DNA from: Flagellimonas oceani
GTDB taxonomy: Bacteria > Bacteroidota > Bacteroidia > Flavobacteriales > Flavobacteriaceae
Length of the DNA: 64,000 nucleotides
Direction of reading: 5' to 3'
Assembly (NCBI RefSeq): GCF_011068285.1
Contig: NZ_CP049616.1
Span: 186,001 to 250,000, forward strand
The notes under the pieces: generated by a model
Told to the model about the DNA's origin: nothing
The model's database searches: none
Seen by the model: only the letters and a program-made list of their open reading frames with translations
Program-made: the position numbers and the translations under genes
In this document: positions 6,680-45,616 of the stretch, piece after piece
Position numbering within the stretch: position 1 is the first letter of the stretch
How the letters are laid out: every line of letters begins with the position of its first letter

Positions 6680-6711
6680 CTCTTAACTGGTTGTCCATTT
6701 TTTTGTTGCAA

Positions 6712-8908: not shown

Positions 8909-9187
8909 AGTTCAAATCTGCTTAAGACATACAGGGAGTAATAGAGATTAACAAAATAAAGTAGCATCCTCTTTGAAAACTCTTTCATATATTTCTTTTG
9001 GTAACTTCTTCAGAATCAATAAAAAGACGGGCTTCTATCTTAGGAAGGTTGTAGCTTTTCTGATTCTTTATTTGATTACGGTGCATGAAGAAATATTTAC
9101 TTCATCTTAAATGAAAGATTCTGCTATATTTGTCAGAAATCAAAACAATACATTTATTATGATTACATGTAATAAACAAACTATGCT

Positions 9188-10027: not shown

Positions 10028-10063
10028 AATAAATTTAAGTGCTAATTTTATTCAGACAGAATC

Positions 10064-11329: not shown

Positions 11330-11467
11330 TTTACAGACCCAAATTAGAATATGCAAACAAGTCATAAATTTTGTTGTCACTCAATTGATATTCATTGTAC
11401 TTTTCTGTTATTCTGTTCAAACTTTGAAAGTGTTTCTTTCTTTGAACCTAATCAACTTAGGGTATTT

Positions 11468-12061: not shown

Positions 12062-12186
12062 AAAAAATCAAAGAATTTATTTCCTTTAATAAAGGATGTG
12101 AAATATTACAAATATGAAAAAAATATTGATATTAAGTTAGGGTTTTATCAAATGGATTTGTCTTCATTACATAAATGTGAATTGTT

Positions 12187-13338: not shown

Positions 13339-13388
13339 TCCAAAAAAAAGACGTTATGCAAAACAATAAATAGCCTCTTCAAATAAAA

Positions 13389-13418
13389 AACCGAAAAATG
13401 TGCCAGCATTTTCCGGTT
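13389..13418 (+). promoter_or_regulatory. Hairpin between fecR and susC
   Basis: Arms AACCGAAAAATG (13389-13400) and CATTTTCCGGTT (13407-13418) pair with one mismatch around a 6-base loop. It sits 43 bp before the susC start with no T-run behind it. It could be a processing or stability element that sets susC levels against fecR, or an attenuated terminator; function not shown. Confidence 0.5.
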
Positions 13419-13460
13419 CGGTAAAAAGATTTATAAAAATTAAATAACTAACTCGAAATT

Positions 13461-16400
13461 ATGAAAAAATTCATAGAACCAAACAATTTGCGTAAGCATA
13501 TTTCGCTATCAAAGTTGAAAATGAAACTAACCATACTTTTCTTAATTCTTACCCTATTCCAAATCAATGCGAATTCTTATTCACAGAACAAAAAGATTTC
13601 CTTGAATATGCAAAATGTCACTATTGCCGATGTGATTCAGGAAATAGAGGCTATATCTGATTTTAAGTTCTTATTGAACCGACGAGATGTGGACCTTGAT
13701 CGCAAGGTTTCAATTGAGGCAATAAAAGAACCCTTGCCATCGGTTTTAACAAAATTGTTTGAAGGTGAAGGGTTGGGTTTTAAAGTGTTTAAGAAACAAA
13801 TAATCCTACATGGGGTAGCAAATAAGTTGGAATCAACACCCAAAATGCCATTACCTATGAAGACAAGTATTCTTCTGTTCCAGGAATTGGTTTCTGGATC
13901 GGTCAAAGATGGTAATGGACAACCATTGCCGGGTGCTAGCATTGTAGAAAAGGGTACCGCGAATGGAACGCAATCTGACTTTGATGGTAATTTTTCGTTG
14001 GAGGTCACCAATGAAAATGCCACCTTGGTGATTTCTTATATAGGGTTTGCAAAAAAAGAAATCGAGGTAAATGGAAGAACCAGTTTCGATATCATATTAG
14101 AGGAGAGTGCCGCAGGCCTTGATGAAGTGGTTGTTGTCGGCTATGGTACCCAACGTAAGAGTGATTTTACCGGTGCCTTGAGTTCTTTGAAGAGTGATGA
14201 CCTTAATCCCGGTACCAATGTGTCCGTTGATCAGTTGCTGGTGGGCAGAGCAGCAGGAGTACAGATAAGCCAGACAAGTGCGGAACCTGGAGGAGGAATT
14301 TCCATTAGGGTGCGAGGTGCAAGTTCTATATCAGCTGGCAATGAGCCATTGTACGTCATCGATGGTTTTCCAATCGACAATTCACAAGGGCTTTCTGGAT
14401 CTGACCCCAATACGGGTATGGGCACCAACGTAAACCCTAGGAACCCCTTAAATACCTTGAACCCCCAAGATGTAGAATCTATTGAAATTCTAAAAGACGC
14501 ATCAGCAACAGCAATCTATGGGTCTAGGGGCGCCAATGGAGTTGTCTTGATTACAACCAAAAAGGGGTCAGCACAAAGACTGACCGTAAATTATGATGAA
14601 TCGGTAGGGTTTCAGCAAGTTCACAATAGAATAAATCTTCTCTCTGCATCAGAATATATTGATGTTATCAACGGTATTGCTGTAGACAATGGCAATGAGC
14701 CTGTGTTCACCCAAGTAGACATCCAACAAATAGGTGCCGGTACTGATTGGCAGGACCAAATTTTCAGAACAGCCATTATACAAAATAGAAATTTATCAAT
14801 TTCAGGAGGAAGTGAAAATTCCAAGTTTTTTGTCTCTTTAAACCAATACAATCAAGATGGGGTGGTCAAAAATACCGGTATTAAAAAATATATCGGCCGA
14901 GTAAATTACGAGAGCACACTTGGCAACAAGGTCAGAATGGGCCTCAATCTTAATACAAGCCATATCAAGGACAAAAATAGTGTTGATGGCGTTGGATTCA
15001 ATTACAGTTCGGGGCCCATTTTTTCAGCACTTTCATATGACCCCACTGAACAGGTATTTGATGAGAATGGCAATTTCAGCGAATCTTCCCAATTGACCGT
15101 GAACAACCCTTTGAGCTTAGTTGAGGGTGTGTTGAGCGAAAACCTCACAAACCGCACACTCGGGAATATATACTTTCAGTATGAAATCAGTAATTTATTG
15201 AATGCCAAACTAAGTTTTGGGTCAGATAGGTCGAACTCCCGAAGAGATGTTTATAACTCTACTTTGACCGTGAACGGAAGGGCACAGGGCGGGGTTGCCA
15301 ATGTCTCGACATTAGAACGCAACAGCAACCTCGTTGAATTTACCATGAATTATAATAAGAAGTTTGGTTCTGAAAGTAATTTGAGCGTTTTGGCCGGTGC
15401 TACCTATCAAGATTTCAGTGTGAGGGAATTTTCGGGAACCATTGGAGGTTTTCCTGATGATATAATAGAAACCAACAATCTATCATTGGGGGACACTGGA
15501 AATGACAACCTAAGAAGCCTGAAAGAAGAAAATGTGCTAACCTCGTACCTAGCAAGATTTAACTATAATCTTATGGATCGCTATCTCTTTACGGCAACGG
15601 TTCGAACTGACGGTTCTTCTCGTTTTGGAGAGAATAACAAATTCGGTTATTTTCCTTCGGCAGCTTTTGGTTGGAAACTTTCAAATGAAGTCTTTGTACC
15701 TGATTTTTTTGAGGAACTGAAACTTAGGGCGAGTTGGGGTCAGACGGGCAATCAAGAAATAGGCAACTACAGTTCCTTACTTACTTTCAGCAGTAGTACA
15801 AACGCCGTTTTTGATAATCAACCTATTACCACCACAAGACCTTCAAGGATTTCAAATCCCGATTTGAAGTGGGAGACTACAGAACAGCTCAATATTGGTT
15901 TGGATATGTCTATACTAAAAGGAAGGCTACGTACCTCGGTAGACTTTTTTGTCAAAAACACAAGAGATTTACTCTTTGACTTGCCTTTACCTTCGGCATC
16001 CGGCTTTAATTCTATCTTATCGAATGTCGGAAAAATACAGAACAAAGGTTTCGAGGCATTGATCAACAGCATAAATGTATCTTCACCCGACTTTATGTGG
16101 ACTACCGCAGTAAATTTTTCTATGATCAAAAATGAAGTATCCGATTTGGGCAGAATAGATGAGATTCCCACGGGAAACATAGCTGATATTGGAAACAATG
16201 CCATAATCAGGAGAGGTGAGCCGTTGGCATCCTATTTCGGCTATGAGGTAACGGGCATTTTTCAAGAAGGCGATGACATTGCCAATTCGCCGCAACCTAC
16301 AGCACAACCTGGATTTCCAATCTTTAGAGATGCTGATCAAGATGGCACAATCGACCCCGATGACCAAATCATTTTAGGGGATCCATTTCCTGATTTTACA

Positions 16401-16883
16401 TATGGGATAAACAACAGTTTCAGTTATAAGGGCTTGACCCTGGATATTTTCATACAAGGTCAAGAGGGGGTTGAGCTCTTAAATGTCAATGCCATTCAAA
16501 GCCTCTATCCTGGTACGTTTAGGTTGAACAGATATGCACATCAATACTTGGATAGATGGACTCCCCAAAACACAAACACTATATGGCCTTCGGGTACCAA
16601 TCCTTCATCATACGGTGGAGGAAGGGTCAATTCACTGGTTGTCGAAGACGCGTCCTATATAAGGTTAAAAAGCATAAACATCAGCTATCAAGTACCTGTT
16701 GACAACATAAAGTTCTTGTCTTCTTTAAAGCTCTATTTGACAGGACAAAACTTGTTGACCATAACAGATTATTCAGGTTTCGATCCAGAGGCCAATTCCT
16801 TTGGAAGAAATAACACCAAGGTTGACTATAGCAGCTACCCCTTGGCAAGCAGCTGGATTTTGGGTGTAAACATTGGATTATAA
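13461..16883 (+). CDS. susC: SusC/RagA-type TonB-dependent receptor with STN signalling domain
   Basis: Outer-membrane glycan importer of 1,140 aa. Order of domains: signal peptide (hydrophobic stretch about residues 22-38), secretin/TonB short N-terminal (STN) domain at about 45-120 (KISLNMQNVTIADVIQEIEA), carboxypeptidase-regulatory-like domain at about 140-215 (SGSVKDGNGQPLPGASIVEK), a TonB-box-like DEVVVVGYGTQRKSDFTGA, the plug with ILKDASATAIYGSRGANGVV, and the 22-strand barrel to the end. The STN domain fits direct signalling to the FecR encoded just upstream. susD follows immediately. The natural glycan cannot be told from sequence, but the neighbours point to a sulfated, acetylated polysaccharide. 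Confidence 0.95.
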   Translation: MKKFIEPNNLRKHISLSKLKMKLTILFLILTLFQINANSYSQNKKISLNMQNVTIADVIQEIEAISDFKFLLNRRDVDLDRKVSIEAIKEPLPSVLTKLFEGEGLGFKVFKKQIILHGVANKLESTPKMPLPMKTSILLFQELVSGSVKDGNGQPLPGASIVEKGTANGTQSDFDGNFSLEVTNENATLVISYIGFAKKEIEVNGRTSFDIILEESAAGLDEVVVVGYGTQRKSDFTGALSSLKSDDLNPGTNVSVDQLLVGRAAGVQISQTSAEPGGGISIRVRGASSISAGNEPLYVIDGFPIDNSQGLSGSDPNTGMGTNVNPRNPLNTLNPQDVESIEILKDASATAIYGSRGANGVVLITTKKGSAQRLTVNYDESVGFQQVHNRINLLSASEYIDVINGIAVDNGNEPVFTQVDIQQIGAGTDWQDQIFRTAIIQNRNLSISGGSENSKFFVSLNQYNQDGVVKNTGIKKYIGRVNYESTLGNKVRMGLNLNTSHIKDKNSVDGVGFNYSSGPIFSALSYDPTEQVFDENGNFSESSQLTVNNPLSLVEGVLSENLTNRTLGNIYFQYEISNLLNAKLSFGSDRSNSRRDVYNSTLTVNGRAQGGVANVSTLERNSNLVEFTMNYNKKFGSESNLSVLAGATYQDFSVREFSGTIGGFPDDIIETNNLSLGDTGNDNLRSLKEENVLTSYLARFNYNLMDRYLFTATVRTDGSSRFGENNKFGYFPSAAFGWKLSNEVFVPDFFEELKLRASWGQTGNQEIGNYSSLLTFSSSTNAVFDNQPITTTRPSRISNPDLKWETTEQLNIGLDMSILKGRLRTSVDFFVKNTRDLLFDLPLPSASGFNSILSNVGKIQNKGFEALINSINVSSPDFMWTTAVNFSMIKNEVSDLGRIDEIPTGNIADIGNNAIIRRGEPLASYFGYEVTGIFQEGDDIANSPQPTAQPGFPIFRDADQDGTIDPDDQIILGDPFPDFTYGINNSFSYKGLTLDIFIQGQEGVELLNVNAIQSLYPGTFRLNRYAHQYLDRWTPQNTNTIWPSGTNPSSYGGGRVNSLVVEDASYIRLKSINISYQVPVDNIKFLSSLKLYLTGQNLLTITDYSGFDPEANSFGRNNTKVDYSSYPLASSWILGVNIGL

Positions 16884-16899
16884 AATTAAATTTACTAAT

Positions 16900-18321
16900 A
16901 TGAAATCACTATATAAATACTATGGAATTGCGGTGCTGGCCCTATCGGCATCGTGCACTGATATCTTGGAGGAAGAAACATTCTCCGAACTGGAACCCGA
17001 AACATTTTTGGCCACTGAGAAAGGAATTAGGTCGTTGCTTGGTTCCGCATACAGTTCAATACAAGTGCAACCCGGCATACCCCAGCAAGGTATTTATGCA
17101 TTATCGGGACTTTCTTCGGGAGAAGTGTCAAGCTTAAACGGGAGCATTGAAATATTTTATAGGCAGCTTTCCGATTTCACATGGGACAGCAATAATAGAC
17201 ATATTTTAGGGCAGTGGGACCTATATTATGCAGCTATCAGAGATGCAAACGTGGTGTTGAGCAATATTGACAATGGCCCATTTAGTGAAGATTTCAAAAC
17301 TCTGATTACCGCCGAGGCTCGCTTTATTAGAGGGTATAGCTATTCTAAGCTATATAACCTTTTTGGCCCAGTGCCCTTGTATAAGGATTTATTTAACGAA
17401 GACCTTTTACTACCCAGAAGTACAGAGGCCGAAATAGAATCGTTCATCGAACAAGAATTGATTTTTGCGTCAACAAACCTTCCAATTAGAGCAATTGAAG
17501 AAGGTAGGGCGACCAAAGGAGCTGCGCTTGGCACCTTATGCAAACATTATTTGAATACCAAAGAATGGCAGAAAAGTGCGGAAAAGGCAAACGAAATCAT
17601 CTCTTTGGGGGTTTATGAACTTTTGCCCGATTACGAAGAAGTTTTCAGTTTGGACAATGAAATCAATGATGAAATGGTATGGGCACTGCCTCACGTAGCT
17701 CCTGATGCTGGCAACCAAATAAATGCGCTCACTTACCCAAGTGATTTTCCTAGACCGGGAGACCTTAGGCTGTATCCGGTCATCATATTTTTTGAAGATG
17801 AATTTGTATTATCGTTCGAGGATAATGATGCTAGGAAAAACTTGATTGTTACTGAATACACCAATACGGCCGGGGATGAGATTCAGCTTTTTGGCAACGA
17901 CCGTTCTTTTCCTGCTAAATATCCCATGGATCCCAATGGATCGGGAGATGGGCAAGGAAACGACATCCCTGATATTCGTTACTCAGATATTTTGTTATCG
18001 AGAGCTGAGGCTTTGAACGAACTCAACGGACCTGTTCAAGAATCAATCGATTTGATAAATCAGGTTCGCAGCAGAGCCGGAGCAAGTGAAATCTCACTTG
18101 CTGATTTTTCAAAACAAAGTTTGAAGAGTTTCATATTGGATGAAAGAAAAAGAGAATTTTTCTGGGAAGGCAAAGGAAGGGAAGACCAGCTTAGACAAGA
18201 TGTATTCATATCTAAAGCTGTTGAAAGAGGTAAGCTTGCCCAAACGTTTCATGTATTGTTCCCAATTCCTCAGATCAATTTAGATGCAAATCCAAAATTG
18301 GTGCAAAACGAGGGTTATTGA
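16900..18321 (+). CDS. susD: SusD/RagB-type glycan-binding lipoprotein
   Basis: Surface lipoprotein of 473 aa that lids the SusC barrel and binds glycan. The frame is open from 16873, but the ATG at 16900 (MKSLYKYYG) gives a proper lipoprotein signal with the lipobox ALSASC. SusD signatures are LRSLLG-type helices near the start, ARFIRGYSYSKLYNLFGPVP and the C-terminal LDERKREFFWEGKGREDQLR. It begins 16 bp after susC and must be in the same operon. No gene follows on this strand before mobile-element remnants. Confidence 0.93.
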   Translation: MKSLYKYYGIAVLALSASCTDILEEETFSELEPETFLATEKGIRSLLGSAYSSIQVQPGIPQQGIYALSGLSSGEVSSLNGSIEIFYRQLSDFTWDSNNRHILGQWDLYYAAIRDANVVLSNIDNGPFSEDFKTLITAEARFIRGYSYSKLYNLFGPVPLYKDLFNEDLLLPRSTEAEIESFIEQELIFASTNLPIRAIEEGRATKGAALGTLCKHYLNTKEWQKSAEKANEIISLGVYELLPDYEEVFSLDNEINDEMVWALPHVAPDAGNQINALTYPSDFPRPGDLRLYPVIIFFEDEFVLSFEDNDARKNLIVTEYTNTAGDEIQLFGNDRSFPAKYPMDPNGSGDGQGNDIPDIRYSDILLSRAEALNELNGPVQESIDLINQVRSRAGASEISLADFSKQSLKSFILDERKREFFWEGKGREDQLRQDVFISKAVERGKLAQTFHVLFPIPQINLDANPKLVQNEGY

Positions 18322-18621
18322 TTTTTGTAGAACATTTTTATTTCGAGCACAGTGGAAAAGGAAAATTCGTTGCATTTAGAGAAGAATTAACAATCTTTAA
18401 GGACGGAATGATTGAAATGGTTTCCAAAAAATAGATGCTGAGCTACAAGCTTAAATTGTGTGATTCGCACACATAGCTTCAATAAATCCCCCCACGGATT
18501 TAGAACAAAGGAAGGGTTTGAAATGGGTCTGGATAAGCCCGCGTAAACTGACCCACCTTCGCCGGATGAAACCGACCAGGGCAAATGGACTGCCCAGATT
18601 TGATCTATCCGTGGGTTAAAC
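18322..18621. other. Gap after susD: hairpin and IS21-type right end
   Basis: No gene. A stem-loop, TGTGTG-ATTCG-CACACA with outer AAGCT/AGCTT pairs, lies at about 18447-18479. From about 18483 to 18610 the sequence read on the minus strand has the look of an IS21 right end (GTGGGTCAGTTTACGCGGGC), with CCCACGGAT and ATCCGTGGG repeats near its two borders. An open stretch of about 36 codons in frame with TTTAAGGACGGAATGATTG before 18432 has no recognisable start or family. Confidence 0.5.
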
Positions 18622-18816
18622 TTAGTTTTTATTTTTCAATTTTCTTCTCATTGATTCTCCTTTTATATCTATTCTGTAGGCTGTATGCACCAAACGATCG
18701 AGGATGGCATCGGCTAGTGTTCTCTCCCCGATGATGTCGTGCCATTTTGATACGGGCAATTGTGGACTATAATTCTGTGTTTTTATCTCAGAATAACCGT
18801 ACATGGTACCATTCAC
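18622..18816 (-). pseudogene. IstB remnant (IS21-family helper ATPase, C-terminal part)
   Basis: The visible peptide SPQLPVSKWHDIIGERTLAD, followed by AILDRLVHTAYRIDIKGESM and RRK, is the C-terminal signature of IstB, the AAA+ helper of IS21 transposition. About 190 N-terminal residues with the Walker motifs are missing and the first residues are out of frame. Orientation is minus, opposite to the IstA remnant at 26447. Confidence 0.8.
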
Positions 18817-18982
18817 ATTTTTTAGTAAAATAGGCTCTACCCATCATAAAATAAAGGGTTTGATAGAACTTGTAATCAGAAAACCTTTATAGGAAAAATA
18901 CTTTCAAAACAATCCTTTCTACTTATTTTATCATATAACTTCTTAATGAGAAGTGATTTAAACTTTTTTTGGATCGAAAGAT

Positions 18983-19490
18983 AGGGCTACGGACATTTGT
19001 GTCGCCAAACATAAATACCATAGCCCATGTACAAAGGATACCATAGAAATGGAGATAGTTCCGCACATACCTTTACCGAAAAGGGGTTTTGCCCCAACGG
19101 CTCCCTTGTACGAGATTGTCAATGCGATACTCTACAAGTTGAAGACGGGCGTGCAATGGGAGTACCTGCCCACGAGCTCGCTGTTCTCCCAAAAGGTCCT
19201 GAGTTGGCAATCGGTCTACCACCATTATCGCAAATGGTGCCGTTCAGGGACATTTCTGGATTGTTGGATCGGTATTTTAAAACGGTACAGGGACATGTTC
19301 GACCTCTCCAGTGTCGATCTTGACGGCAGCCACACTGCCATCAGGGGAGGCTAGGCCGTGGAATACCAAGGCCGCAAAAAGGGCAGGACCACCAATGCCC
19401 TCTTCCTTACCGATAGGCAGGGACTGCCCTTGGCCATCTCGGAACCGGTATCCGGTAACCACAATGACCTTTTTGACATCGAGGTACTGC
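18983..19490 (+). pseudogene. IS5-like transposase remnant, stop codon and 3' truncation
   Basis: A left end (GGGCTACGGACATTTGTGTC) at 18983 precedes a broken transposase gene. The coding frame from 19049 reads YEIVNAILYKLKTGVQWEYL, then the catalytic DLSSVDLDGSHT, and meets TAG at 19352. The same frame continues with EYQGRKKGRTTNALFLTDRQ and SEPVSGNHNDLFDIE, so an amber mutation split it. It ends abruptly near 19490 at the GH3 fragment; the last third and the right IS end are gone. Confidence 0.8.
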
Positions 19491-20460
19491 GTAGGCTCCA
19501 TAACCAAAATGGGCGTCATGCCCTCCTTCTTCGGGACCACCCCCAGGCCAGTGTTTCACCATCGCATTCACGCTTTGGTAGCCCCAACCGCCATCACCGG
19601 AAGATTGAAATCCATCCACATAGGCCCTGGCCATATCGGTGGCCAATTTAGGGTCCTCACCCATGGTACCATCAAAACGGGACCAACGGGGTTCCGTGGC
19701 CAAATCAATTTGGGAGGAGAGTGCCGTGGCAATGCACAAGGCACGATATTCCTTGGAAGCAATCTCCCCAAATTGCTTCATCAATCCAGGATCAAAACTG
19801 GCCGCAATGCCCAAGCTACTGGGCCACATGGAAATCTGTCCGCCCGATCCTGCATTGAATTCCGCATAGGAATCGCTGCCATGCCTTGGATACGAACTCG
19901 TGTTCACCGGAATGCCCATGCCGATACCTTCCACAAAGGCTTGCGCATTGTTGTTCCATTGCGCAGCAACTCCGGGAGATTCCACGCTGGTAATCAATAC
20001 ATGCCGTAAGTTGTCATACTTTAAAAAAACTTGTTGGGCATCGGAAAGGTCACTTGCCTTTGCCCCACTTTCCGCAAAAGGCTTTACATTGTAGGTCGCC
20101 GGACCAAAAAAACGGTTCCCACCTCCTGGAATGGATTGGTGGGCACTGTACAACATCAATCCGGCAATTCGCTCAATGCTCATCTTGGAAGCCAAGTCCT
20201 GGGCTCGTTCCTCAACGGGCAATCGCCAATCCTCATAGGAATCCAGTCCCATTTTGATTTAGATCCTTGAAGGCCAATTGATCTACTTCAAGGATGAGAA
20301 CCCCGGATTTAGAGCAATACCCTAAACTTTTCCCAACTTGTTGGTGTACAAGATTGAATTCTCCTTTATTCTCTTCGGTAAATTTTGGACCACTGCAGCC
20401 CGTCAAGAGTATAACTGAAACAGCAATGCTAAAATAGAATGGGCGCTTTTAGGATTTCAT
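19485..20460 (-). pseudogene. GH3 beta-glucosidase-like lipoprotein, broken gene
   Basis: N-terminal part of a glycoside hydrolase family 3 enzyme. Reading from ATG at 20460: codon 4 is TAA, then the frame continues as a lipoprotein signal (SIAVSVILLTGC). Near 20245 a one-base shift moves the reading into SYEDWRLPVEERAQDLASKM. The conserved NAMVKHWPGGGPEEGGHDAH follows, and the gene ends near 19490 where IS5 sequence takes over. The nucleophile Asp region and the second domain are lost. Three lesions make it non-functional; it was likely a secreted glycosidase of this locus. Confidence 0.85.
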
Positions 20461-20535
20461 ATTGGTGTATTTTGTGTTCAAAGACTGTTTTTTGGCTTTC
20501 CGTTTTTAGGATTTTTGGGAGGAATCATATAGATG

Positions 20536-21645
20536 CTATTTGTTTCTGGGCATTTTTACCGGCATTACTGTCCTAAACCCTAAATGCTCCATTCCCGAAT
20601 CAGGACTGGTGGCCATACGGGCACTTATCCGGTAGCTGGCACAATAGGAGGCACTGCATAGGAAAGACCCGCCCTTGATCACTTTTTCCTTGGCATATGG
20701 GTTCGAGGGATTATAGGCCTCAAAAGCCCCTTTAGGGTTTTGGGTAACCTCGTTTTTGTCCGCAAGTTCCTTATAATAATTCGTGTTGTACCAGTCGCTA
20801 GTCCATTCCCAGACATTTCCGGCCATATCGTAAAGGCCAAAGTCGTTCTTGGGATAGCTCATCACGGGGGCCCTACGCTCAAATCCATCCTCTTTGGTAT
20901 TGTTCAACGGAAATTCCCCTTCCCACGAATTGGCATGGGAACTCAACTGCGAGACATCGCTTCCCCAAAAGAACAGCTCGTCCTTTTTGCCTGCCCGTGC
21001 GGCATATTCCCACTCGGCCTCGGTGGGTAATCTCCTTCCCGCCCACTTACAATAGGCCAGGGCATCCTCAAGGGCAATGTGCACCACAGGCTCATTTTCC
21101 TTGTCCTTAATAGTGCTTTCCGGCCCGTTGGGATGTTTCCAATTGGCACCTATCTTCCATTCCCACCATTGCGAATAATCATATAGGTTAGTCACACTGG
21201 ATTTGGTTTTTTTGAACACAAGGGACCCTGGCTGCAAAATGGAGTCATGGGGTTTGGGAGTGCCCTCTGGCAATTGTTTCTTCATTTCCTCCCAATCAAT
21301 TTCCCGTTCTGCGACAGTTACGTAACCGGTCTCATCCACAAATTTGACGAACTGTTCATTGGTGACCTCATGGATGTCCATAAAAAAACCGTCAACGTGC
21401 ACCTGGTGCGCCGGCTTTTCATGCATCATGGCCATTTTGTCCTTAGCGACGGCACCCTCCATAAATTCTCCACCTGGTATCCAAACCATACCTTCTGGTG
21501 CTTCGGTCGGTGAATCTGTTAATTTTGGAGGCCCCTCTATTTCTGTTATGCCAATGGATTCATTTGCTCCATCTGTTTTGGTCCTGCACCCTATCAGGAA
21601 GACAAACAGGATAATAAAAAGTGCCGATTTATGCTTTAATACCAT
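20536..21645 (-). CDS. Lipoprotein formylglycine-generating enzyme (SUMF1 family)
   Basis: Sulfatase-maturing enzyme of 369 aa that would convert the Cys of CxPSR motifs to formylglycine. The signal sequence ends at lipobox Cys20 (VFLIGC). The FGE-sulfatase domain runs from WIPGGEFMEGA to the end, with RRLPTEAEWEYAARAG, YDMAGNVWEWTSDWY and the active-site segment KGGSFLCSASYCASYRISAR. The two redox cysteines are present (330 and 335) with the same four-residue spacing as in human FGE, which many paralogues lack, so catalysis is likely. Export as a lipoprotein implies modification outside the cytoplasm. It is the last of three minus-strand genes after two sulfatases. Confidence 0.88.
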   Translation of the reverse strand: MVLKHKSALFIILFVFLIGCRTKTDGANESIGITEIEGPPKLTDSPTEAPEGMVWIPGGEFMEGAVAKDKMAMMHEKPAHQVHVDGFFMDIHEVTNEQFVKFVDETGYVTVAEREIDWEEMKKQLPEGTPKPHDSILQPGSLVFKKTKSSVTNLYDYSQWWEWKIGANWKHPNGPESTIKDKENEPVVHIALEDALAYCKWAGRRLPTEAEWEYAARAGKKDELFFWGSDVSQLSSHANSWEGEFPLNNTKEDGFERRAPVMSYPKNDFGLYDMAGNVWEWTSDWYNTNYYKELADKNEVTQNPKGAFEAYNPSNPYAKEKVIKGGSFLCSASYCASYRISARMATSPDSGMEHLGFRTVMPVKMPRNK

Positions 21646-21699
21646 TGTTCTTGGTTCTATGAAGATGTTTTGACCTGGACTATATGGTTAATTTCGTGT

Positions 21700-23343
21700 T
21701 TATAAATATTCTTGGTACAACCTTTTTCTTTTTTCGGGGGAAAGTTTCCAATATTCAACCAATGGGTTGGCTTTGACCTTTTCATAATATTCCTCAATGA
21801 ATTGCCGGTTTTGGGCATCGTTGTCCCCGTATTTCACCCTTAATTGTTCAAGTTCCTTGTGAAGCTCTTTTTGGATGCTTGCATAGGATAGATCTCCATA
21901 TACATTGTTCAGTTCATTAGGATCCTTTTGGAAGTCGTATAATTCCCATTTATCCAAATCATAGTAGAAATGGATCAACATGTATCTATCGGTGGTAATT
22001 CCGTAATGCCTTCTTACATCGTGCTCGGAAGGATGTTCGTAGTAGTGGTAGTAATGGGCTTTTCTCCAATCCTTAGGTGTGTTTCCCTCTAAAATGGGCA
22101 GCATGCTTTTCCCTTGCATGTCCGCTGAAATTTCGGTTTGTGCGATATCCAAAAAGGTTTCGGCAAAATCCAGATTGGAAACCAGGTCCTTATTGGTCGT
22201 TCCTGGGCTGACCTTACCGGGCAACTTTACCAGTAATGGAGTTTGCAAAGATTCCTTATACATCCATCTTTTATCAAACCAGCCGTGTTCCCCCAAATAG
22301 AATCCTTGGTCGGAGGTATAAATAACAATAGTGTTCTCATCGAGCCCAGCTTCCTTTAAATAATCCAATACTTGGCCAACCCCTTTGTCCACGCCGGCAA
22401 TACAGGCCAAATAATCCCGCATGTAACGTTGATACTTAAAACGGGTCAGATTGTCTCCCTTAAGATTAGCTTTCTTGACCTTTTCGTTGATAGGCCCATA
22501 GATAGAATCCCATTTTTTCTGTTGTTCCTCTGTAAAACCAGCTTGGGGTTGGTCCGTTATTTTAATATCCTGTGCCATTTTCATGGCTTCGGAAATGGAC
22601 ATATAGTTCATGGCGGCTACCTCCCTGTTTCCTGAGTAATCATCGAACAAAGTCTTTGGTTCTGGAATCTCTACATTTTCATACATGCCCAACTCATTTG
22701 GTCCCGGCTGCCATGGTCTGTGTGAGGATTTGTGTCCCAAAAACAGCATAAAGGGCTGGTCATCGGATTTGATGGCGTCAATCCATTTGATGGCTTTCTC
22801 CGTAATGATTTCCGTAGTGTATCCTTCCAATTGATATTGTCCCTCATTATTGATGAAAAGGGGATTGTAATAGGATCCCTGACCTGGTAGAATGTCGATA
22901 TAATCGAATCCTTTGGTCGGTTTATCGCCCAGATGTAGTTTACCGAGCACCCCGGTTTTGTATCCCGCCTGTTGGAGCAATTCACCAAAGGTTTGTTGGT
23001 CAAAGTCGAATTTGGTACCGAACCTATTGTCGATAAATCCATTTTTATGACTGTACTTGCCCGTGAGTATGGTAGCCCTTGATGGCCCACAAATAGAATT
23101 GGCAACCAGACAATTCTCAAAGAGCATGCCTTCCTTGGCAATCCGATCAATATTGGGAGTTGGTGCTACTTGGGCCAATCTACCGCCATAGGCACTGATG
23201 GCCTGATAGGCATGGTCATCACTGATAATGAAGACAATATTGGGCCTTTTTTGGTTTTCATCTTTTTGTTGGGCCTGTATTTTGGTAATGCTGAACGACC
23301 ACAACATTACGAATACCAGTATGATTTGAAAAGGATTCTTCAT
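21700..23343 (-). CDS. Secreted S1-family sulfatase (GlcNAc-6-sulfatase-like)
   Basis: Formylglycine sulfatase of 547 aa with a signal peptide ending near residue 24. Motifs: IISDDHAYQ metal ligands near residue 42, NSICGPSRATILTGKYSHKN with the modified Cys85, and TSDQGFYLGEHGW near residue 345. The CGPSR variant and the following KYSHKNGF resemble S1_11 enzymes, some of which act on GlcNAc-6-sulfate; the subfamily is my guess. It lies between a second sulfatase (6 bp upstream) and the formylglycine enzyme (54 bp downstream), one transcription unit. Confidence 0.93.
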   Translation of the reverse strand: MKNPFQIILVFVMLWSFSITKIQAQQKDENQKRPNIVFIISDDHAYQAISAYGGRLAQVAPTPNIDRIAKEGMLFENCLVANSICGPSRATILTGKYSHKNGFIDNRFGTKFDFDQQTFGELLQQAGYKTGVLGKLHLGDKPTKGFDYIDILPGQGSYYNPLFINNEGQYQLEGYTTEIITEKAIKWIDAIKSDDQPFMLFLGHKSSHRPWQPGPNELGMYENVEIPEPKTLFDDYSGNREVAAMNYMSISEAMKMAQDIKITDQPQAGFTEEQQKKWDSIYGPINEKVKKANLKGDNLTRFKYQRYMRDYLACIAGVDKGVGQVLDYLKEAGLDENTIVIYTSDQGFYLGEHGWFDKRWMYKESLQTPLLVKLPGKVSPGTTNKDLVSNLDFAETFLDIAQTEISADMQGKSMLPILEGNTPKDWRKAHYYHYYEHPSEHDVRRHYGITTDRYMLIHFYYDLDKWELYDFQKDPNELNNVYGDLSYASIQKELHKELEQLRVKYGDNDAQNRQFIEEYYEKVKANPLVEYWKLSPEKRKRLYQEYL

Positions 23344-23349
23344 GTTATT

Positions 23350-25110
23350 TTATTTAAACTTATAGATGATTTCTGTTGGCTTATATCCTATACGATGCGC
23401 ATTGACTTGAATGGTCTGCCCTTTTTTGAGTGATATGTTACCACCGGTGTAAACATTCCACGGCTTGGGCACGGTCACTGTTTTTTTGTTGTTATGTGGC
23501 ATTAGGTAGAAAAAGTCCCAAGTTTTTATGTCCCGTACCAAGGTGGAATCCGCTACATTGTCCTTGAATATTCGATAACCTATGGAGGCACCATCGGTGG
23601 CACATGAAAGTGTTACACCTTCCTTGCTTTTTTTTATGACTGGTTTTTCGGTCATAGGGGCATCATCCTTACCTTTCCACCACATGTTCCTGACCATTTC
23701 TTTTTCTGGAATTTTACCGGTGTCCCCAACAACTTCCAGCCAGTTAAAAAGTACTTCTTTCAACTCGTTTTTCTTGTCTTGGTATGCGGGGTCGTCTGCT
23801 AGATTGTGTACTTCGTCCGGATCTTTGGTGGTATAATAGAATTCTTCTTGCGGTTTTGGCGTATTGAACCAGTCCGAAAGGTATGGATTGGTAATCTTGC
23901 CTGCATCCCTCATATCAATGATTTCCTGCATGCTGACCATTTGTCTTCTGTAGGCCAAATCCTGGTATTTGGGCAATTCGGGATGAAAATTATAAACGTA
24001 CCTAAAGGTCCCATCGGTCACAGAGCGAACTCTATCATATTTATCCGCCATTCTATCCCTGCCGGCAAATACATATTGGTTCTTTTCACTTCCCGATTTT
24101 GGGCCCAAAAATGGCTTGCCCTGCAAGTAGTCTGGAATATCAGCCCTGGCAATGGATAACATACTGGGGGCGAAATCAACGGAACTGATCAAGTCATTGT
24201 TCACGGTACCGGCCATTTCAGATCCTGGATGTTTCACAACAAATGGGATATGGGTGCCTCTCTCCAAGATTTCACGTTTCATCCAGGGCAAATTGCCTCC
24301 ATGATCACTATAAAAGATCACATAACTATCATCATAGACCCCATCTTTTTTTAGTTGTTGGATCAATTCTCCCACATCACTGTCCATTTGCTCAATCCGA
24401 GTATACAAGGCAGCCTTGTCGTGCCTCATTTGTTCCGTATTCTGGTAATAAAGGGGCAGCACCATTTTAGATGGATCGTAGTAGAGGGAATCTGGAGGAG
24501 AAATGATTTGGGACTCATGCGAAATGGCAAAGTTAAAGACACTGAAGAAAGGTTGCCCAGCCTTCCTGTTTTGGTAGGAGGCACCAATACTGCTTTCGTC
24601 CCAAACGGTCACGGGCTCCTCAAATTGATAATCTTCTTTTGCGTTGTTCGATGTGTAATACCCAACTTTTCTCAGATACTCGGGAAAAGCCTTGACTTTT
24701 GGTGGTAACACGGCCGAATAGCTGGGGACCCCTTCGGGCATCAATTTTGAGTTGTTATGAGTAGTTCTCATATGGGAAGTCCCGATGGAGATCTGGTTCA
24801 TTCCCGTAATGATAGAGGACCTACTTGGGGCACAGACCCCAGCAGTCGTATATACCCGCGTATACCTAACGCCATCCCTTGCCAGTGCGTCAATATTGGG
24901 AGTCCGCACAGTGGCATCCCCATAAACCCCGATATAGGGGGAAATATCTTCACAAACGATCCAAACAATATTAGATTTGGTCTGGGAAAATGTGTGCGCG
25001 GTGAAAATAAATATAAGAAGAATCGTAAATCGTTTGGTAATCGTTCTTAAAAATAATGTTACAGTATGCGAAAAAGAATCAAAAATCATGTTGTACAAGA
25101 TTGGCTTCAC
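23350..25110 (-). CDS. Secreted S1-family sulfatase with C-terminal chitobiase-like domain
   Basis: Sulfatase of 586 aa, collinear with the one at 1747-3483: both have NIVWIVCEDISP, GVCAPSRSSIITGM (modified Cys93 here), ALYTRIEQMD and REILERGTHIP, with many differences between, so an old duplication. The signal segment is RFTILLIFIFTAHTFSQ. A start at 25089 (second Met) or further in is possible because the first 20 residues are unusual. The C-terminal 90 residues repeat the GASIGYRI and AHRIGYKP module. First gene of the minus-strand operon; an IS481-like element lies 55 bp upstream and may have replaced its promoter. Confidence 0.92.
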   Translation of the reverse strand: MKPILYNMIFDSFSHTVTLFLRTITKRFTILLIFIFTAHTFSQTKSNIVWIVCEDISPYIGVYGDATVRTPNIDALARDGVRYTRVYTTAGVCAPSRSSIITGMNQISIGTSHMRTTHNNSKLMPEGVPSYSAVLPPKVKAFPEYLRKVGYYTSNNAKEDYQFEEPVTVWDESSIGASYQNRKAGQPFFSVFNFAISHESQIISPPDSLYYDPSKMVLPLYYQNTEQMRHDKAALYTRIEQMDSDVGELIQQLKKDGVYDDSYVIFYSDHGGNLPWMKREILERGTHIPFVVKHPGSEMAGTVNNDLISSVDFAPSMLSIARADIPDYLQGKPFLGPKSGSEKNQYVFAGRDRMADKYDRVRSVTDGTFRYVYNFHPELPKYQDLAYRRQMVSMQEIIDMRDAGKITNPYLSDWFNTPKPQEEFYYTTKDPDEVHNLADDPAYQDKKNELKEVLFNWLEVVGDTGKIPEKEMVRNMWWKGKDDAPMTEKPVIKKSKEGVTLSCATDGASIGYRIFKDNVADSTLVRDIKTWDFFYLMPHNNKKTVTVPKPWNVYTGGNISLKKGQTIQVNAHRIGYKPTEIIYKFK

Positions 25111-25165
25111 TAATTAGAGCGATCCATTTTCCTTTTATAGACAAGATTTTGATTTTTTTTTCTAG

Positions 25166-26134
25166 TGTGCTACTTCAGCTAAAATGGCAATAAACTCTCA
25201 TTCTTTTAAGTGAAACATTAAAATCTCATAGGGTGTCTTTCCCTTAAATGCACCTTGTGTTCTATAAAGTTATAAAAGTCTTCCCATTGTTTTATTTTCT
25301 TGTTCAAATCAACATCATCAGAATAATCTAGTAGTTGATAAAACTCTTTCTTGTCCGTGAGGTGTGATCGTTCCACCTTTCCGTGAGCTGTGGTCTTCCT
25401 GGCTCTATGTAACGGTGCTCCATGCCAAGGTCCTTCACGTGCCAATTGAACCTAGATTGGAACTCATGTCAATTGTCTGTCTGGACTGCATGGATTCGGA
25501 AAGGGAACTTATTGGCAACATAATCCATAAAGTCAATGGAACTTGACTGGTTGTGACTTTCATATACTTTCAATGCCCTGATACGCGTGTAATCATCAAT
25601 GGCCGTGTACTGATATCGTTTTATCTTTTTTCCTTCGTTGGTGTGGAAAATCAAGAATTTAACATCCACTTGGACATGGTGTCCCGGAGTTTCCTTGGCG
25701 TAACGTTTAGGTCCCATCGCTTTTCTGGTAACTGCTCGTTTGAGCGGTTTGATACCGTTTCTTTTAAGGGTCCTATAAACACTTGATTCAGAAATATTGA
25801 TGTCATGGTATCTTTCCAAGTACCATTTGATACGCCATGCGCCAAGTTTGTATTTCCTTCTAAGGTCCAATATCAGATCAACCGTTTTTTGATTGATTCT
25901 ATTGGGGTAGGTATCCGCTTCCCTTTTTTTCCTTAAAAGACCCTCTGTCCCATACTAATCATACTTTCTTTTCCAGCTAAAGAAAGTGCTCCTGCTCACA
26001 TTGAACATCTCACAGGTTTCCTTGACCTTTCCATAATCTATTGCAAAGTCCAATACCCTCAGTTTGAACTTCCATCTCAAAAGTGTCTCTTTAAATATTA
26101 TCAAAATAGTACACTTTTAGTTGACGTAGTCACA
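25166..26134 (-). mobile_element. Decayed IS481-like insertion sequence
   Basis: Inverted ends TGTGCTACTTCAGCTAAAAT (from 25166) and, read from 26134 on the minus strand, TGTGACTACGTCAACTAAAA. The transposase is on the minus strand in pieces: an N-terminal helix-turn-helix part (about 25900-26090), the rve core at 25469-25870 (VQVDVKFLIF, YTAIDDYTRIRALKVYES, then AVQTDN and a stop) and a C-terminal part at 25218-25445 (GKVERSHLTDKKEFYQLLDY). Stops and frameshifts separate them. Family call from the rve layout; IS3 relatives cannot be excluded. Confidence 0.75.
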
Positions 26135-26359
26135 TACATGAACAAGTAACAGGGAGCCTTCAGGAGGTCCTACATTCTACATAAATAATATACAACCTAA
26201 AGTCTCACTTAAAGGGGAGGGATTTTCCCTGGATAAATATAATAAAATCGAGCACTTATGTATATTAGTTAATACTTAATCTGACAATCTCAATATATTA
26301 GTTTAACCCTTGAATTAGTGGAAACGCCAGACATAGTATATCATCTTCGTCGGGTCAAA

Positions 26360-26640
26360 GTGAGTGTAGCTGGCCAGTGAAAGTGAGCCACTTTTGATTT
26401 GTGCTGTTTGTAAAGTCCCAAAGGTCTTTTTTTGCCAAAGAGGACCATGGCGAACAAGCAGGTAGACGTGCAAAAATAAATAGATATTCAAATTCTACAC
26501 CTGGGGTGTGAGCAAGCGGCGGATAAGCCAGAAGTTAGGCATCTTCCGAACACGGTGGACAAGCACATCGATTTCTCTAAGCTTTACCGCTTGACGACAT
26601 ATGAGGTGGAGAATATTTATACTCCTTGATGGGCTAAAAT
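26360..26640 (+). mobile_element. IS21-family left end with decayed istA start
   Basis: A terminal-type region with repeated AAAGTGAG (near 26360 and 26380) leads to ATG at 26447. The peptide MANKQVDVQK, a stop, then NTVDKHIDFSKLYRLTTYEV is the N-terminus of an IstA transposase, but with several frameshifts and no remainder. Plus orientation, opposite to the istB remnant at 18622. Between 26134 and 26360 I see nothing recognisable. Confidence 0.7.
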
Positions 26641-26699
26641 CAAGCTCTTCTGATATGAAATGACTTATTTAAAATGATTTCAATATCTTTCTTTAAAAA

Positions 26700-26728
26700 G
26701 TTCGAATTCTGTCCTGCCGAGGTCACCA
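26700..26728 (+). repeat. tRNA 3'-end-like fragment, candidate attachment site
   Basis: CCTGC (T-stem half, 26713-26717), CGAGGTC (7-base acceptor half, 26718-26724), A73 and CCA (26726-26728) follow the exact layout of a tRNA 3' end. GTTCGAAT, a T-loop, stands 5 bases too far upstream; removing TCTGT (26708-26712) would give a perfect T-arm end. The rest of a tRNA is absent. A terminator begins 3 bases later. This is what an integrative element leaves at its far border. Confidence 0.55.
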
Positions 26729-26730
26729 TA

Positions 26731-26764
26731 AAAAAAGCACACTGGGACAGCGTGCTTTTTTATT
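26731..26764. terminator. Rho-independent terminator, usable from both strands
   Basis: AAAAAAGCAC and GTGCTTTTT arms enclose CT..AG with a single A/C mismatch. T-runs follow on both strands. On the minus strand it ends the hybrid kinase gene; on the plus strand it would follow the tRNA-like fragment. Confidence 0.85.
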
Positions 26765-26768
26765 TTAA

Positions 26769-29165
26769 TTAAGCGACGTTACTAATTGCCTTGTCAATTG
26801 CATTTTTGCTCATTTTTGAAAAAAGAAGCGGACCGTTAACGGGTTTTGTTACAAGGTCGTTGGCCCCAAGTTCAAAAATCTTTTTCCTTGTTTTACTGGT
26901 GTTGTCCGCTGTAAGGACTATGATGGGAATACCTGGATGGCAATTGGCCATGCCATTTCTGATGAGGGATGTAGTTTCGAATCCATCCATTTCCGGCATT
27001 TGAAGGTCCATTAGAATCATGTCGAATTTCTTTTCCTTCATGATTTCCAAAGCTTCTTTTCCATGATTGGCAATAGTAAGGTTGGCCTTGTCCCAATTCT
27101 TTTTGAACAAGAGTTTCACAACGGTCTGGTTCATCTTATTGTCCTCAACATATAGAATGTTGCCCGTTTCCGTTTGAATTTCAGGAACAACCGATTTGGA
27201 GCCTTGCGGGGTCTCGGTTTGATGGTCATCAATCTCAAAGCTTAAATTCAACTCACAAATTGTACCCTGGGTCTCGTTGTTTTTAAGGTTGATGCTCCCT
27301 TTTTGTAAGTCAACATAGGTTTTTACAATATACAGCCCTAGGCCCAAGCCGCTGAACTCCCTTTTGTCCATAAAGGATTTTTTGGTAAAGGATTCGAATA
27401 TGGTGCTCATCTTTTCTTCGGAAATCCCTATTCCAGTATCTTTTATTTTGAAGTTTATTGAGGCTTGGTCATCTTTTTTCTGACATTGGATCTCGACATC
27501 TACGCTTCCCTTATTGGTGAACTTTATGGCATTGTCCAAAAGGTGGGTAAGAATCTGGACTAGTTTTGCCTTGTCCCCGACTATTCGGGCCGGTAAATTA
27601 TCAGAAATTGATACGTTGAAAGCCAATCCTTTGGCGATCGCTTTCTTTTCTTGTTGGTTTACAACTTTTTGGATCGATGATTTTATGCCAAAAGAGACTT
27701 CTTTTAATTCTTGGTCTCCTTTTTCGATTACCGTAAAATCCAAAATATCCTCAATATAGCCCAATAGATTCTTGGAGGAGCTTAGGAGCATCTTGCATTT
27801 TTCGTCCAGATTTTCTCCTTCTTTGTTTTCCTGTAGCGAGGTGGCTACGCCCATAATCAAGTTAAGGGGTGTCCTAAGTTCATGGCTGATATTGGACAGA
27901 AACGATGATTTGATATCGTTCATATCCTCAGCGCGTTGGAGGGCGAGCATTTGGTTCTGTTCATTTTCCATGCGTAGGTTACGAATCCTATTGACCATGG
28001 ATATGGATAGGAATATGATTTCAAAGCCAATACCGAACTTGGTACCGTTACTAGTGAGAAAGGAGTTCTCCACAGCATTGAAATTATTTAAAATAAAAAC
28101 CACAAAGCCCAACAGCAAAAAGGAAATACCGATTATAAAGAAAACGTCGACCTTTTGCTTTTTAAACTTCATTACCACAAGGGATACGAGCATTTGTGCC
28201 AATACCAATATGCCGATAGCGTTGGCCAACGGATAGGAATACTCAAAGTTTGTTGAGAGCACCAGCATAAGAACGGCAAGGAGTATTGCGAATCCTGTTA
28301 CTTTGTTGACAATGTGCAACAATGGAATATTTTTCTTCAAGTTAAGAAAGGTGTCCCCGTATTTTCCAAAAAAGAGTAGGGAGGTCAGGGCGGTCAATAA
28401 AACGGCCCTGTCGGAGAGCCATCCTCCCTGGGGCGTAAAATATTGGTGGAAAAACCCATCCAAAGAGAATTGCATCAAGGCGATAAAGAGCACATAGAGC
28501 GCATAGTATATAAACGCCTTGTCCTTTAGGGCAAAAAAGAAGAACAGGTATATAATGCAGGCCAAGATCAAGATGCCGTAAAAGAAACCGTAAAACACCT
28601 GCTCTTTATAGGTTAGATTGAAAAAACTGGCCTCTTGGTAAAGTTTCATGGGAAGCATTACCACCTCTCCATCACTTTTTAGGTGTATGTATGCTTCTAT
28701 TTTTTGACCGGGCCTGAGACCGATTTCAAATATGGACTTTCTGTGTTGGATGGTCTTTTTGGAAAAAGGAATTTTATCTCCGCTGTATTGCTTTTCCAAT
28801 TGTCCGGTTTCATCAATTAGGAATAGATTTACAACATCTGTAATGGGTCGAGCGGTTTCTAAATAATACTGTTTGTACCGGTCTGTTGTGTTTTTCAAGC
28901 TGAAGTTCAGCCAATAGTTGTCATTGGAAAATCCCAGATTTTCCTTTAAACTGGAGAGCGGAACAAACTCCAAAGCGGGATTGTTTCTGATTTCCTCAAG
29001 GTTATATTCATTTTGTCCGGCCAATAACACTGATGTAATGGGGCGCAGTGAAACGGCCTCCGTGAAATTTTGCTCATCAAGGTTTTGGGCATTCGATACT
29101 ATGGGAAATGCTAAGAAAAGAATCTTTAGCCAAAAGAACAATCTATGGGGAGTTGACTGGCGCAT
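26769..29165 (-). CDS. Hybrid sensor histidine kinase with 7TMR-DISM sensor
   Basis: Membrane two-component protein of 798 aa. A signal peptide (about 1-26) is followed by a periplasmic DISMED2-type domain (to about residue 185), seven membrane helices (about 190-395), a HisKA domain with the phospho-acceptor box NISHELRTPLNL, a HATPase domain (DNAIKFTN; GLGLGLYIVKTY), and a C-terminal receiver domain with VEDNKMNQ and the Asp in MILMDLQMPEMDG. No DNA-binding output domain is attached, so a separate response regulator or Hpt protein elsewhere is expected. Such 7TMR sensors often detect carbohydrate-derived ligands. Monocistronic as far as seen. Confidence 0.93.
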   Translation of the reverse strand: MRQSTPHRLFFWLKILFLAFPIVSNAQNLDEQNFTEAVSLRPITSVLLAGQNEYNLEEIRNNPALEFVPLSSLKENLGFSNDNYWLNFSLKNTTDRYKQYYLETARPITDVVNLFLIDETGQLEKQYSGDKIPFSKKTIQHRKSIFEIGLRPGQKIEAYIHLKSDGEVVMLPMKLYQEASFFNLTYKEQVFYGFFYGILILACIIYLFFFFALKDKAFIYYALYVLFIALMQFSLDGFFHQYFTPQGGWLSDRAVLLTALTSLLFFGKYGDTFLNLKKNIPLLHIVNKVTGFAILLAVLMLVLSTNFEYSYPLANAIGILVLAQMLVSLVVMKFKKQKVDVFFIIGISFLLLGFVVFILNNFNAVENSFLTSNGTKFGIGFEIIFLSISMVNRIRNLRMENEQNQMLALQRAEDMNDIKSSFLSNISHELRTPLNLIMGVATSLQENKEGENLDEKCKMLLSSSKNLLGYIEDILDFTVIEKGDQELKEVSFGIKSSIQKVVNQQEKKAIAKGLAFNVSISDNLPARIVGDKAKLVQILTHLLDNAIKFTNKGSVDVEIQCQKKDDQASINFKIKDTGIGISEEKMSTIFESFTKKSFMDKREFSGLGLGLYIVKTYVDLQKGSINLKNNETQGTICELNLSFEIDDHQTETPQGSKSVVPEIQTETGNILYVEDNKMNQTVVKLLFKKNWDKANLTIANHGKEALEIMKEKKFDMILMDLQMPEMDGFETTSLIRNGMANCHPGIPIIVLTADNTSKTRKKIFELGANDLVTKPVNGPLLFSKMSKNAIDKAISNVA

Positions 29166-29352
29166 TAAGTAGGTATTAGTTTGATACCATCCTTTGGGAA
29201 GATGATATCAAGTTCGTTGGGTTTATTATATAACGCTTAAGGCCGTACCCTTAGTGTATTTGCCCGCTTGAGGGCGGAAACGATTAGACGTAATCATAAA
29301 AAACTTCGATGAACGGTTTTTTTGGGGTGTGCTCGCGTTCTTTTTGAGCTGA

Positions 29353-29931
29353 TTATTGGTCAAGGTTTATTCCCAAAACTGCCATAATTTCTTCAAAACT
29401 CCCGGAACTGTTTGTGGACAGGTCGCTGTTTAAGGCAACATCAGCTGGAACCAAAACATAGCGGATACCAACTTTTTCCGGCTCGGATTGAAAAATATTT
29501 ATGGTAATGGGCTGTCCATCAAAAAAGATTCTAAAGCCTTTAAAGGCTTGGGTTTGATAAGTTGCATTTTCCGGAAATTCACCATAGCTAAAATCGAGGT
29601 AATCGGAATTACCATAATATGAAGGTAGCGGCTTTGCATTTGAACCGATTTTGAAATACATCAGGGCAACGCCACCGTTTTCCATGAAAGTGCTTATATT
29701 TTCTACCGGGACATCAAAAATGGCATCACCTGTCTCTAGGTTTTTCCAAGTCCAAACAATGGGCATCCAATCCGATACAATCACGTTGGCATTACCGTCC
29801 TTGCCATCTTTTCCGGCAGGACCGGTTTCGCCATCTTCGCCATCTTCGCCCGAGCATGAAAGTAACAGGGTAACTAGACTTAATATGGCAATGTGCACGA
29901 ATTTATTTACGTTAGGGCAAAAAGTTTTCAT
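29353..29931 (-). CDS. Lipoprotein with short collagen-like Gly-X-Y stretch
   Basis: Secreted lipoprotein of about 192 aa; start taken at 29931 (MKTFCPN) because it gives a clean signal with lipobox LLLSC. Right after the Cys come Gly-X-Y triplets (GEDGEDGETGPAGKDGKDGN), as in many Bacteroidota surface lipoproteins, then a beta-rich domain of unknown function. A direct-repeat motif with 21-bp spacing lies 59 bp upstream and points towards this gene; the same motif precedes the surface lipoprotein at 39557. Function unknown. Confidence 0.8.
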   Translation of the reverse strand: MKTFCPNVNKFVHIAILSLVTLLLSCSGEDGEDGETGPAGKDGKDGNANVIVSDWMPIVWTWKNLETGDAIFDVPVENISTFMENGGVALMYFKIGSNAKPLPSYYGNSDYLDFSYGEFPENATYQTQAFKGFRIFFDGQPITINIFQSEPEKVGIRYVLVPADVALNSDLSTNSSGSFEEIMAVLGINLDQ

Positions 29932-45477: not shown

Positions 45478-45616
45478 TCCAATATTATTTAAATGATTTT
45501 TATGTATTGATTGACCCTCAATCAGCGTGCAAAGATATGCTTTTATTTGAAATCAAAAGACTTATTGAAAATAAACTTTGGATGCGGTTATCCTGATTAA
45601 TTTTCTACGGTAAAGC

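Follow-up and report, generated by a model that had tools for sequence, protein, structure and literature searches.

The window analysed here comprises 64,000 nucleotides of the Flagellimonas oceani genome (G000:186001-250000, G000 being the organism's own genome, one contig of 4,610,330 bases; positions without prefix refer to the window) and is divided at position 26726, equal to G000:212726, by the right end of a 57.7-kb island of a large serine recombinase (LSR). Positions 1-26726 are its rightmost 26.7 kb, and the island extends leftward to G000:155053. Its genes in the window include an insertion sequence (IS) with a Mutator-family transposase (10002-11340, plus strand; ORF 10064-11329), a sigma factor and a FecR-type anti-sigma factor (11468-13338) just upstream of a SusC/SusD-like pair recognized with Pfam (13461-18321, plus strand), and, as cargo beside the border, two sulfatases and a formylglycine-generating-enzyme (FGE)-type protein, likewise assigned with Pfam (20536-25110, minus strand). 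An rve-type transposase remnant lies between this cargo and the border (25469-25870, minus strand), its Pfam match being weak and below the curated cut-off. The cargo among the genes examined comprises an AcrB-type pump, two SusC/SusD-like pairs, four sulfatases, an FGE-type protein and esterases, genes that, judged from sequence, look like machinery for digesting sulfated algal sugars.

To the right of the border the DNA is native to the site. A terminator hairpin (26731-26761; -14 kcal/mol, z -5.05, with none of 200 shuffled sequences equally stable), missing from the output of a simple consensus terminator scan, is followed by the native right neighbour, a convergent gene for a 7TMR-DISM hybrid histidine kinase with a response-regulator domain (26769-29165, minus strand), which is colinear in the relatives G016, G021, G018 and G002. 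Similarity of the right flank in these four genomes extends to ~32 kb, where the query stops, and is interrupted near 29-30 kb by an unaligned gap of variable length. Farther right, Rfam recognizes an S15-Flavobacteria ribosomal leader (RF03161, 73.4 bits, 45475-45537, minus strand).

ARAGORN finds zero tRNA genes in the window. An intact tRNA-Arg(TCG) gene is located 66.8 kb left of the border in the same orientation (G000:145868-145941), and comparison of positions 26560-29400 with 39 genomes, the organism's own included, revealed where it formerly stood. In eight relatives the aligned DNA extends as far as the kinase gene's 3' end; three further genomes (G004, G005, G022) match only in short stretches within that gene. 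In six of the eight (G016, G021, G018, G002, G017 and G010), tRNA-Arg(TCG) directly precedes the kinase terminator, the tRNA being joined to the other flank as at an empty site, and hairpins occupy the same place between tRNA and kinase gene. The left flank of the G000 tRNA-Arg(TCG) is colinear, at 83-88% identity, in five of these six; the contig of the sixth, G002, stops at the tRNA. The other two relatives, G008 and G011, show no tRNA beside the kinase within the stretch compared; tRNA-Arg lies ~2 kb from the kinase in G008, and in G011 it is found at a contig end, abutting LSR DNA. Given the six empty-site relatives and the colinear left flank, tRNA-Arg(TCG) and the kinase gene were once neighbours. 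An earlier sequence-only reading of the window had placed the border of a genomic island here, with a terminator native to the site, an absent tRNA body, an intact tRNA beyond the left edge, and relatives in which that tRNA would be followed directly by the kinase gene; each of these expectations is borne out. A reading of position 26726 as the end of an insertion sequence was rejected, since the identity extends beyond 50 kb and tRNA-Arg is present at the empty sites.

The recombinase gene and the tail at attR

The LSR gene lies at the left end of the island (G000:154981-156621, minus strand) and encodes 546 residues with matches to PF00239 (Resolvase, 6e-26) and PF07508 (Recombinase, 5e-9); no match to a Pfam zinc-ribbon was found in it. 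LSR integrases are typically ~450-700 residues long. Structural relatives recognizable by sequence (3guv, 3bvp) cover the catalytic part only, and we infer that the enzyme catalyses attP x attB recombination here. Behind the gene follow a Fic-domain protein and then a MobA/VirD2-type relaxase; the island is integrative and probably mobilizable.

The gene crosses the core GTGACC in frame. At its other end the island meets the native flank in the same core, read on the plus strand as GGTCAC (26721-26726), which is common to the element and the tRNA and has its partner attL copy at G000:155047-155052. The antisense strand of this end (26640-26726, minus strand) continues the LSR frame across the core for 28 codons and a stop, reading VTSAGQNSNFLKKDIEIILNKSFHIRRA, an orphaned LSR 3' end. 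Since the LSR gene and the far end of the island form one reading frame across the core, attP is placed inside the LSR gene, and positions 26721-26726 are very probably the attR of an LSR island that inserted at a tRNA-Arg 3' end. Read in this way, integration is an event that replaces the last 26 residues of the enzyme with tRNA antisense and leaves the original tail behind at 26640-26726.

At attL the LSR frame crosses the core into the antisense of an RNA gene, an overlap of the DsiB type. The G000 enzyme ends in VTQGGFEPHPLALKFIDLCLAYV; roughly eight residues at the start of this peptide are tRNA antisense, and those after them derive from the neighbouring tyrosine-integrase element. LSR ends in the family differ by target: VTAAGFKPATF or close variants at tRNA-Arg(ACG), VTQGGFEPPTLRAEI or variants at tRNA-Arg(TCG), and VIAEGFEPSTVCLEG, among others, at tRNA-Arg(TCT). 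Of the 38 related loci, 25 have the 3' end of the LSR gene lying antisense over a tRNA-Arg gene (11 ACG, 11 TCG, 3 TCT). The LSR end lacks a complete tRNA in the other 13, of which six carry a tRNA 3' piece only and seven comprise four short remnants, one contig end, one 59% relative and one locus with an unrelated peptide tail (L221). By a simple motif rule, 103 of 120 homologues, among the matches listed (of 2257), end in a tail resembling tRNA antisense. Named carriers include Flagellimonas/Allomuricauda/Muricauda, Maribacter, Mariniflexile and others. Plasmid and phage collections yielded no relatives of the LSR at limits of 1e-40 and 1e-30.

Among 15 distinct ends, 11 preserve the frame of the stranded tail. 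The pN/pS was calculated on these 11, leaving out the four whose frame to the core is lost; over all 28 codons it is 0.37. Such an end, of ~90 bases, might be kept only as a DNA-binding arm of the recombinase, the open frame being a by-product, and this explanation is improbable. In its favour, the inner ~25 bases must be an attP half-site, pN/pS of codons 2-9 is a moderate 0.52, and the frame has after all been lost in those four ends. Against it, codons 10-28, which lie beyond the half-site, have a pN/pS of 0.28 in the LSR frame, a value as low as which was reached in none of 500 column shuffles (mean 0.77), with the qualification that the shuffles ignore relatedness and that choosing intact frames somewhat favours a low pN/pS. 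Variable columns in this part are distributed 7, 6 and 13 over the three codon positions, and both other frames of the same strand contain stops in all 11 tails. One reverse frame gives a pN/pS of 0.34, yet has a stop in nine of the 11. In its pattern of substitutions, then, the tail shows the signature of purifying selection.

Two degraded copies retain an LSR end and a tail contiguous across the core, one in G040, F. aequoris (L176, L239), and one in G062 (L177), their LSR remnants corresponding in tblastn to residues 383-525 and 478-525. This is the appearance expected of attP, though both copies are broken. The same contiguity in L176 and L177 speaks against the tail being a separate 28-residue peptide, for example a directionality factor, started from the GTG of the core. 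GTG is usable as a start, and an ATG happens to precede it in the window; the bases before the core are, however, native and differ among six identical copies, so that no conserved ribosome-binding site is possible, and we regard a separate peptide as very unlikely. As the continuation of the LSR, the tail would be exposed to selection only where it is translated, that is, on the circle or in a tandem, and it is therefore most simply explained as needed for integration, its presumed role.

By eye, an LSR copy on a Flagellimonas pelagia contig (L201/L221) that ends in VNDMVQNSNQLIEDLKLLADILAA and lacks a tRNA there looks similar to the stranded tail; the proposal that it shares the tail motif was dropped, because its profile score of 22.7 stayed below the 27.4 that marks the 99.9% level of shuffles. 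The same proposal, also made by eye, for the non-tRNA tails of the distant LSRs P0102, P0104 and P0107 gained no support from the profile test.

Origin of the border letters and the stacked elements

In the sequence-only reading, CCTGC (26713-26717), CGAGGTC (26718-26724), A (26725) and CCA (26726-26728) were the 3' end of a tRNA with a T-loop five bases off register, stranded as the distal att scar of a single element that carried the sulfated-glycan locus. The letters are present at these positions, the terminator hairpin does follow them, and the scar does belong to an element with that locus. Most of the letters called tRNA are, however, the attP arm of the LSR. The exact 16-mer CCTGCCGAGGTCACCA occurs once in the 4.61-Mb genome, at the border itself, and no tRNA ends so; among the tRNA ends compared (30 loci; the genome has 37 tRNAs, three of them outside those loci), the closest is that of tRNA-Arg(ACG), TCCTGCCGCGGTCACT, 2.37 Mb away and with 2 mismatches in 16. 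The absence of any tRNA with this 3' end is the very result that had been named as fatal to the border reading, which nonetheless survives because the letters are attP.

The inner attP arm, CCTGCCGA (26713-26720, plus strand), matches the 3' side of tRNA-Arg(ACG), CCTGCCGC, in seven of eight bases, and is preceded by the T-loop-like motif GTTCGAAT (26700-26707, plus strand). Both are identical in six genomes, the organism's own included, whose flanks differ, and both are therefore element DNA. The motif starts 23 bases before TCAC at the border, as it does in nine of 15 distinct attR ends, against 18 bases in all nine tRNA-Arg genes examined; among the other six ends, four lack the motif or TCAC, and two degraded ends with LSR attached give 22 and 25. 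The register shift noticed earlier is thus real and recurrent, while the motif itself belongs to attP rather than to a tRNA. For a Listeria phage integrase, PMC3783163 describes a zinc-domain motif shifted by 5 bp between attP and attB, and since the spacings of 23 and 18 reproduce this offset, we interpret the border as an LSR attP arm that mimics a tRNA-Arg 3' end and read GTTCGAAT as its zinc-domain motif. Inspection by eye revealed no clear motif in the native attB half. At the border, Rfam yielded no convincing hit, and a comparison of the border sequence with phages gave no match.

A tRNA origin is possible only for GGTCAC (26721-26726) and for CA (26727-26728, plus strand), the first native bases. 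By comparison with the tRNA end in G017, which reads ..GGGTCACCACAAAAAAAGC, this CA is probably the last two bases of a CCA once encoded by tRNA-Arg(TCG).

Between tRNA-Arg(TCG) and the kinase gene lie two stacked elements, rather than the one that had been supposed. A 9.1-kb element (G000:145918-155053; L105, L106) adjoins the tRNA, encodes a tyrosine integrase (G000:146173-147444, Pfam Phage_integrase) and is bounded by identical 26-bp tRNA repeats (G000:145918-145943 and 155028-155053); the 57.7-kb island follows. An integrase suspected beyond the left edge is accordingly present twice, as this enzyme and as the LSR. A tyrosine integrase directly after the tRNA, together with true tRNA repeats, is what would be expected if a tyrosine-integrase island had displaced a tRNA and the border letters were genuine remains of that tRNA. 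Those repeats delimit a separate element left of the window, though, and the constancy of CCTGCCGA and GTTCGAAT amid different flanks, the retained 23-base spacing and the lack of a matching tRNA end refute a tRNA remnant for all letters but GGTCACCA; we consider this origin highly improbable.

Related arrangements occur at other sites. A left arm similar to that of the 9.1-kb element also follows tRNA-Arg(TCT) and tRNA-Val(TAC) in G000. A second LSR of the same family is found in G000 at tRNA-Arg(ACG) (G000:2584694-2726442), with its attR end ~142 kb away, and the flank of that attR equals the flank of the ACG site in G064; this interval possibly consists of several stacked elements. In tRNA-Arg(TCG) of G064 resides a different element of ~28 kb with an LSR of the same family (G064:C1:2500561-2528408). 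The suggestion that it adjoins the same kinase gene was abandoned, a search beyond its right end having failed to find the gene.

Near-identical copies in other species

The island recurs in other genomes with little divergence. In G011 the identity is 99.94% over G000:160076-196001 and 99.99% over 197341-212726, its contig starting there, the draft genome G007 matches window positions 11341-26726 at 99.99% and 8651-10001 at 99.93%, and the complete genome G064 matches G000:158131-196001 at 99.4% and 197341-212739 at 99.96%, the IS excepted. This IS is absent in the four copies that cover its place (G007, G011, G064, G065), and the stretch at 25469-25870 is 99.9-100% identical among the other copies compared. 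The G064 copy, an island of 54.8 kb, starts in tRNA-Arg(ACG). As a control, core DNA left of tRNA-Arg(TCG) is 79.9% identical in G011 (15.0 kb), 80.2% in G007 (10.4 kb) and 75.4% in G064 (1.5 kb). On these alignments, a near-identical island (99.4-100%) is common to species whose core DNA is 75-80% identical, and the same unit is found at another tRNA gene and in other species. Its last 97 bases are identical in six of 71 genomes of the genus, the organism's own included, with six different flanks; any match to this end (28 match rows) was found in 13 of the 71, two of them with matches of only 29-31 bases (G081, G082), which were dropped. Four of the genomes concerned (G007, G011, G063, G065) are draft assemblies, and contamination or assembly error might be invoked for 99.9% identity, but with the single-contig genomes G000 and G064 carrying the island in different tRNA genes and between different flanks, its probability is negligible.

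The LSR gene is only 92% identical between G000 and G064, while the rest of the island is at least 99.4% identical, and LSR and cargo may not be one travelling unit in G000. In the region G000:154981-158130, a 1.5-kb stretch containing the Fic gene is absent in G064; this integration module may have been exchanged. A near-identical repeat of ~0.7 kb with transposase-like ORFs (6029-6716 and 8221-8908) is also present twice in G011 and G064.

Relation to known systems and a possible switch

Islands at tRNA genes are commonplace, and overlap between an LSR gene and its att site is known from Dehalococcoides dsiB; the selected and swapped LSR tail seems new. To our knowledge, phage LSR genes do not end inside attP; the present enzyme is directed to the 3' ends of tRNA genes, and its gene terminates within attP. 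It shares with Listeria phage LI/A118-type LSR integrases the 5-bp shift of the zinc-domain motif relative to the centre (PMC3783163).

In the Dehalococcoides ssrA islands, the gene of the serine recombinase DsiB overlaps attL at a structural RNA gene and has variable C-termini, and its authors suggested that it may have full function only in the circular form, or when next to another island that contains the 3' fragment (PMC3146451). The two systems have in common an LSR-type integrase gene that overlaps attL, variable C-termini and adaptive cargo. The DsiB system targets tmRNA through a CcrB-like LSR with a small partner, DsiA, and the section on it shows no conserved 3' tail; the present island, unlike it, targets tRNA-Arg, and its tail lies in frame at attR and is under selection. 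In mycobacteriophages with integration-dependent immunity, attP likewise lies inside a gene and integration alters the C-terminus of the protein, but there the altered protein is the repressor, integration is by a tyrosine integrase, and what is lost is typically a degradation tag of the ssrA-like kind (PMC8092301), while here it is the C-terminus of the recombinase itself that changes. Pleolipovirus-like proviruses of archaeal viruses resemble the island in having a coding frame that spans attP and is intact only in the circular form; in their case it is a separate ORF after the integrase gene (PMC7911831). Integrated elements with polysaccharide utilization loci and SusC/SusD cargo are known from gut Bacteroidetes, there in gut species and with serine integrases rare (12 of 197 Bacteroidetes IME clusters; PMC6907783). 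A swap of an LSR tail with a conserved tail was not found among the open-licence papers listed, beyond the dsiB suggestion, and there was no match in passages of an integrative-mobilizable-element review (PMC5704250) or of an LSR survey (PMC10083194).

In the mechanism that we propose, the LSR with its own tail would be made from the circle and serve integration. The circle would cross its attP with the 3' end of a tRNA-Arg, the crossover falling within TCAC. The sequence shows the outcome: the island lies at the 3' end of tRNA-Arg genes with the tRNA whole at its left end, the attL copy of the LSR gene runs into tRNA antisense, and the original last codons stand in frame at the right end; the integrated enzyme with its tRNA-antisense tail may then serve excision, or be reduced in it. 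Transfer of the island could proceed by its own relaxase with help from another element. We tentatively suggest that the recombinase in this way rewrites itself: the selected 26-residue tail would favour integration, and its exchange for a tRNA-antisense peptide would change the activity or stability of the enzyme and so set the direction of recombination. This is a possibility to which we give less than even weight.

A near-identical island with sulfated-glycan-degradation cargo is thus common to marine flavobacterial species, its recombinase and target being traceable. For one family, the tail is a candidate answer to the open dsiB question: the recombinase gene does have a conserved 3' end, located at the distal att site. 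Should activity depend on the tail, members of this family chosen from databases for use as genome tools would have an incorrect C-terminus. And if the proposed switch is true, exchange of a protein segment, and not only a separate directionality factor, would determine direction, and the annotated C-termini across a large Bacteroidota LSR family would be products of integration, unlike those of the integrating enzyme.
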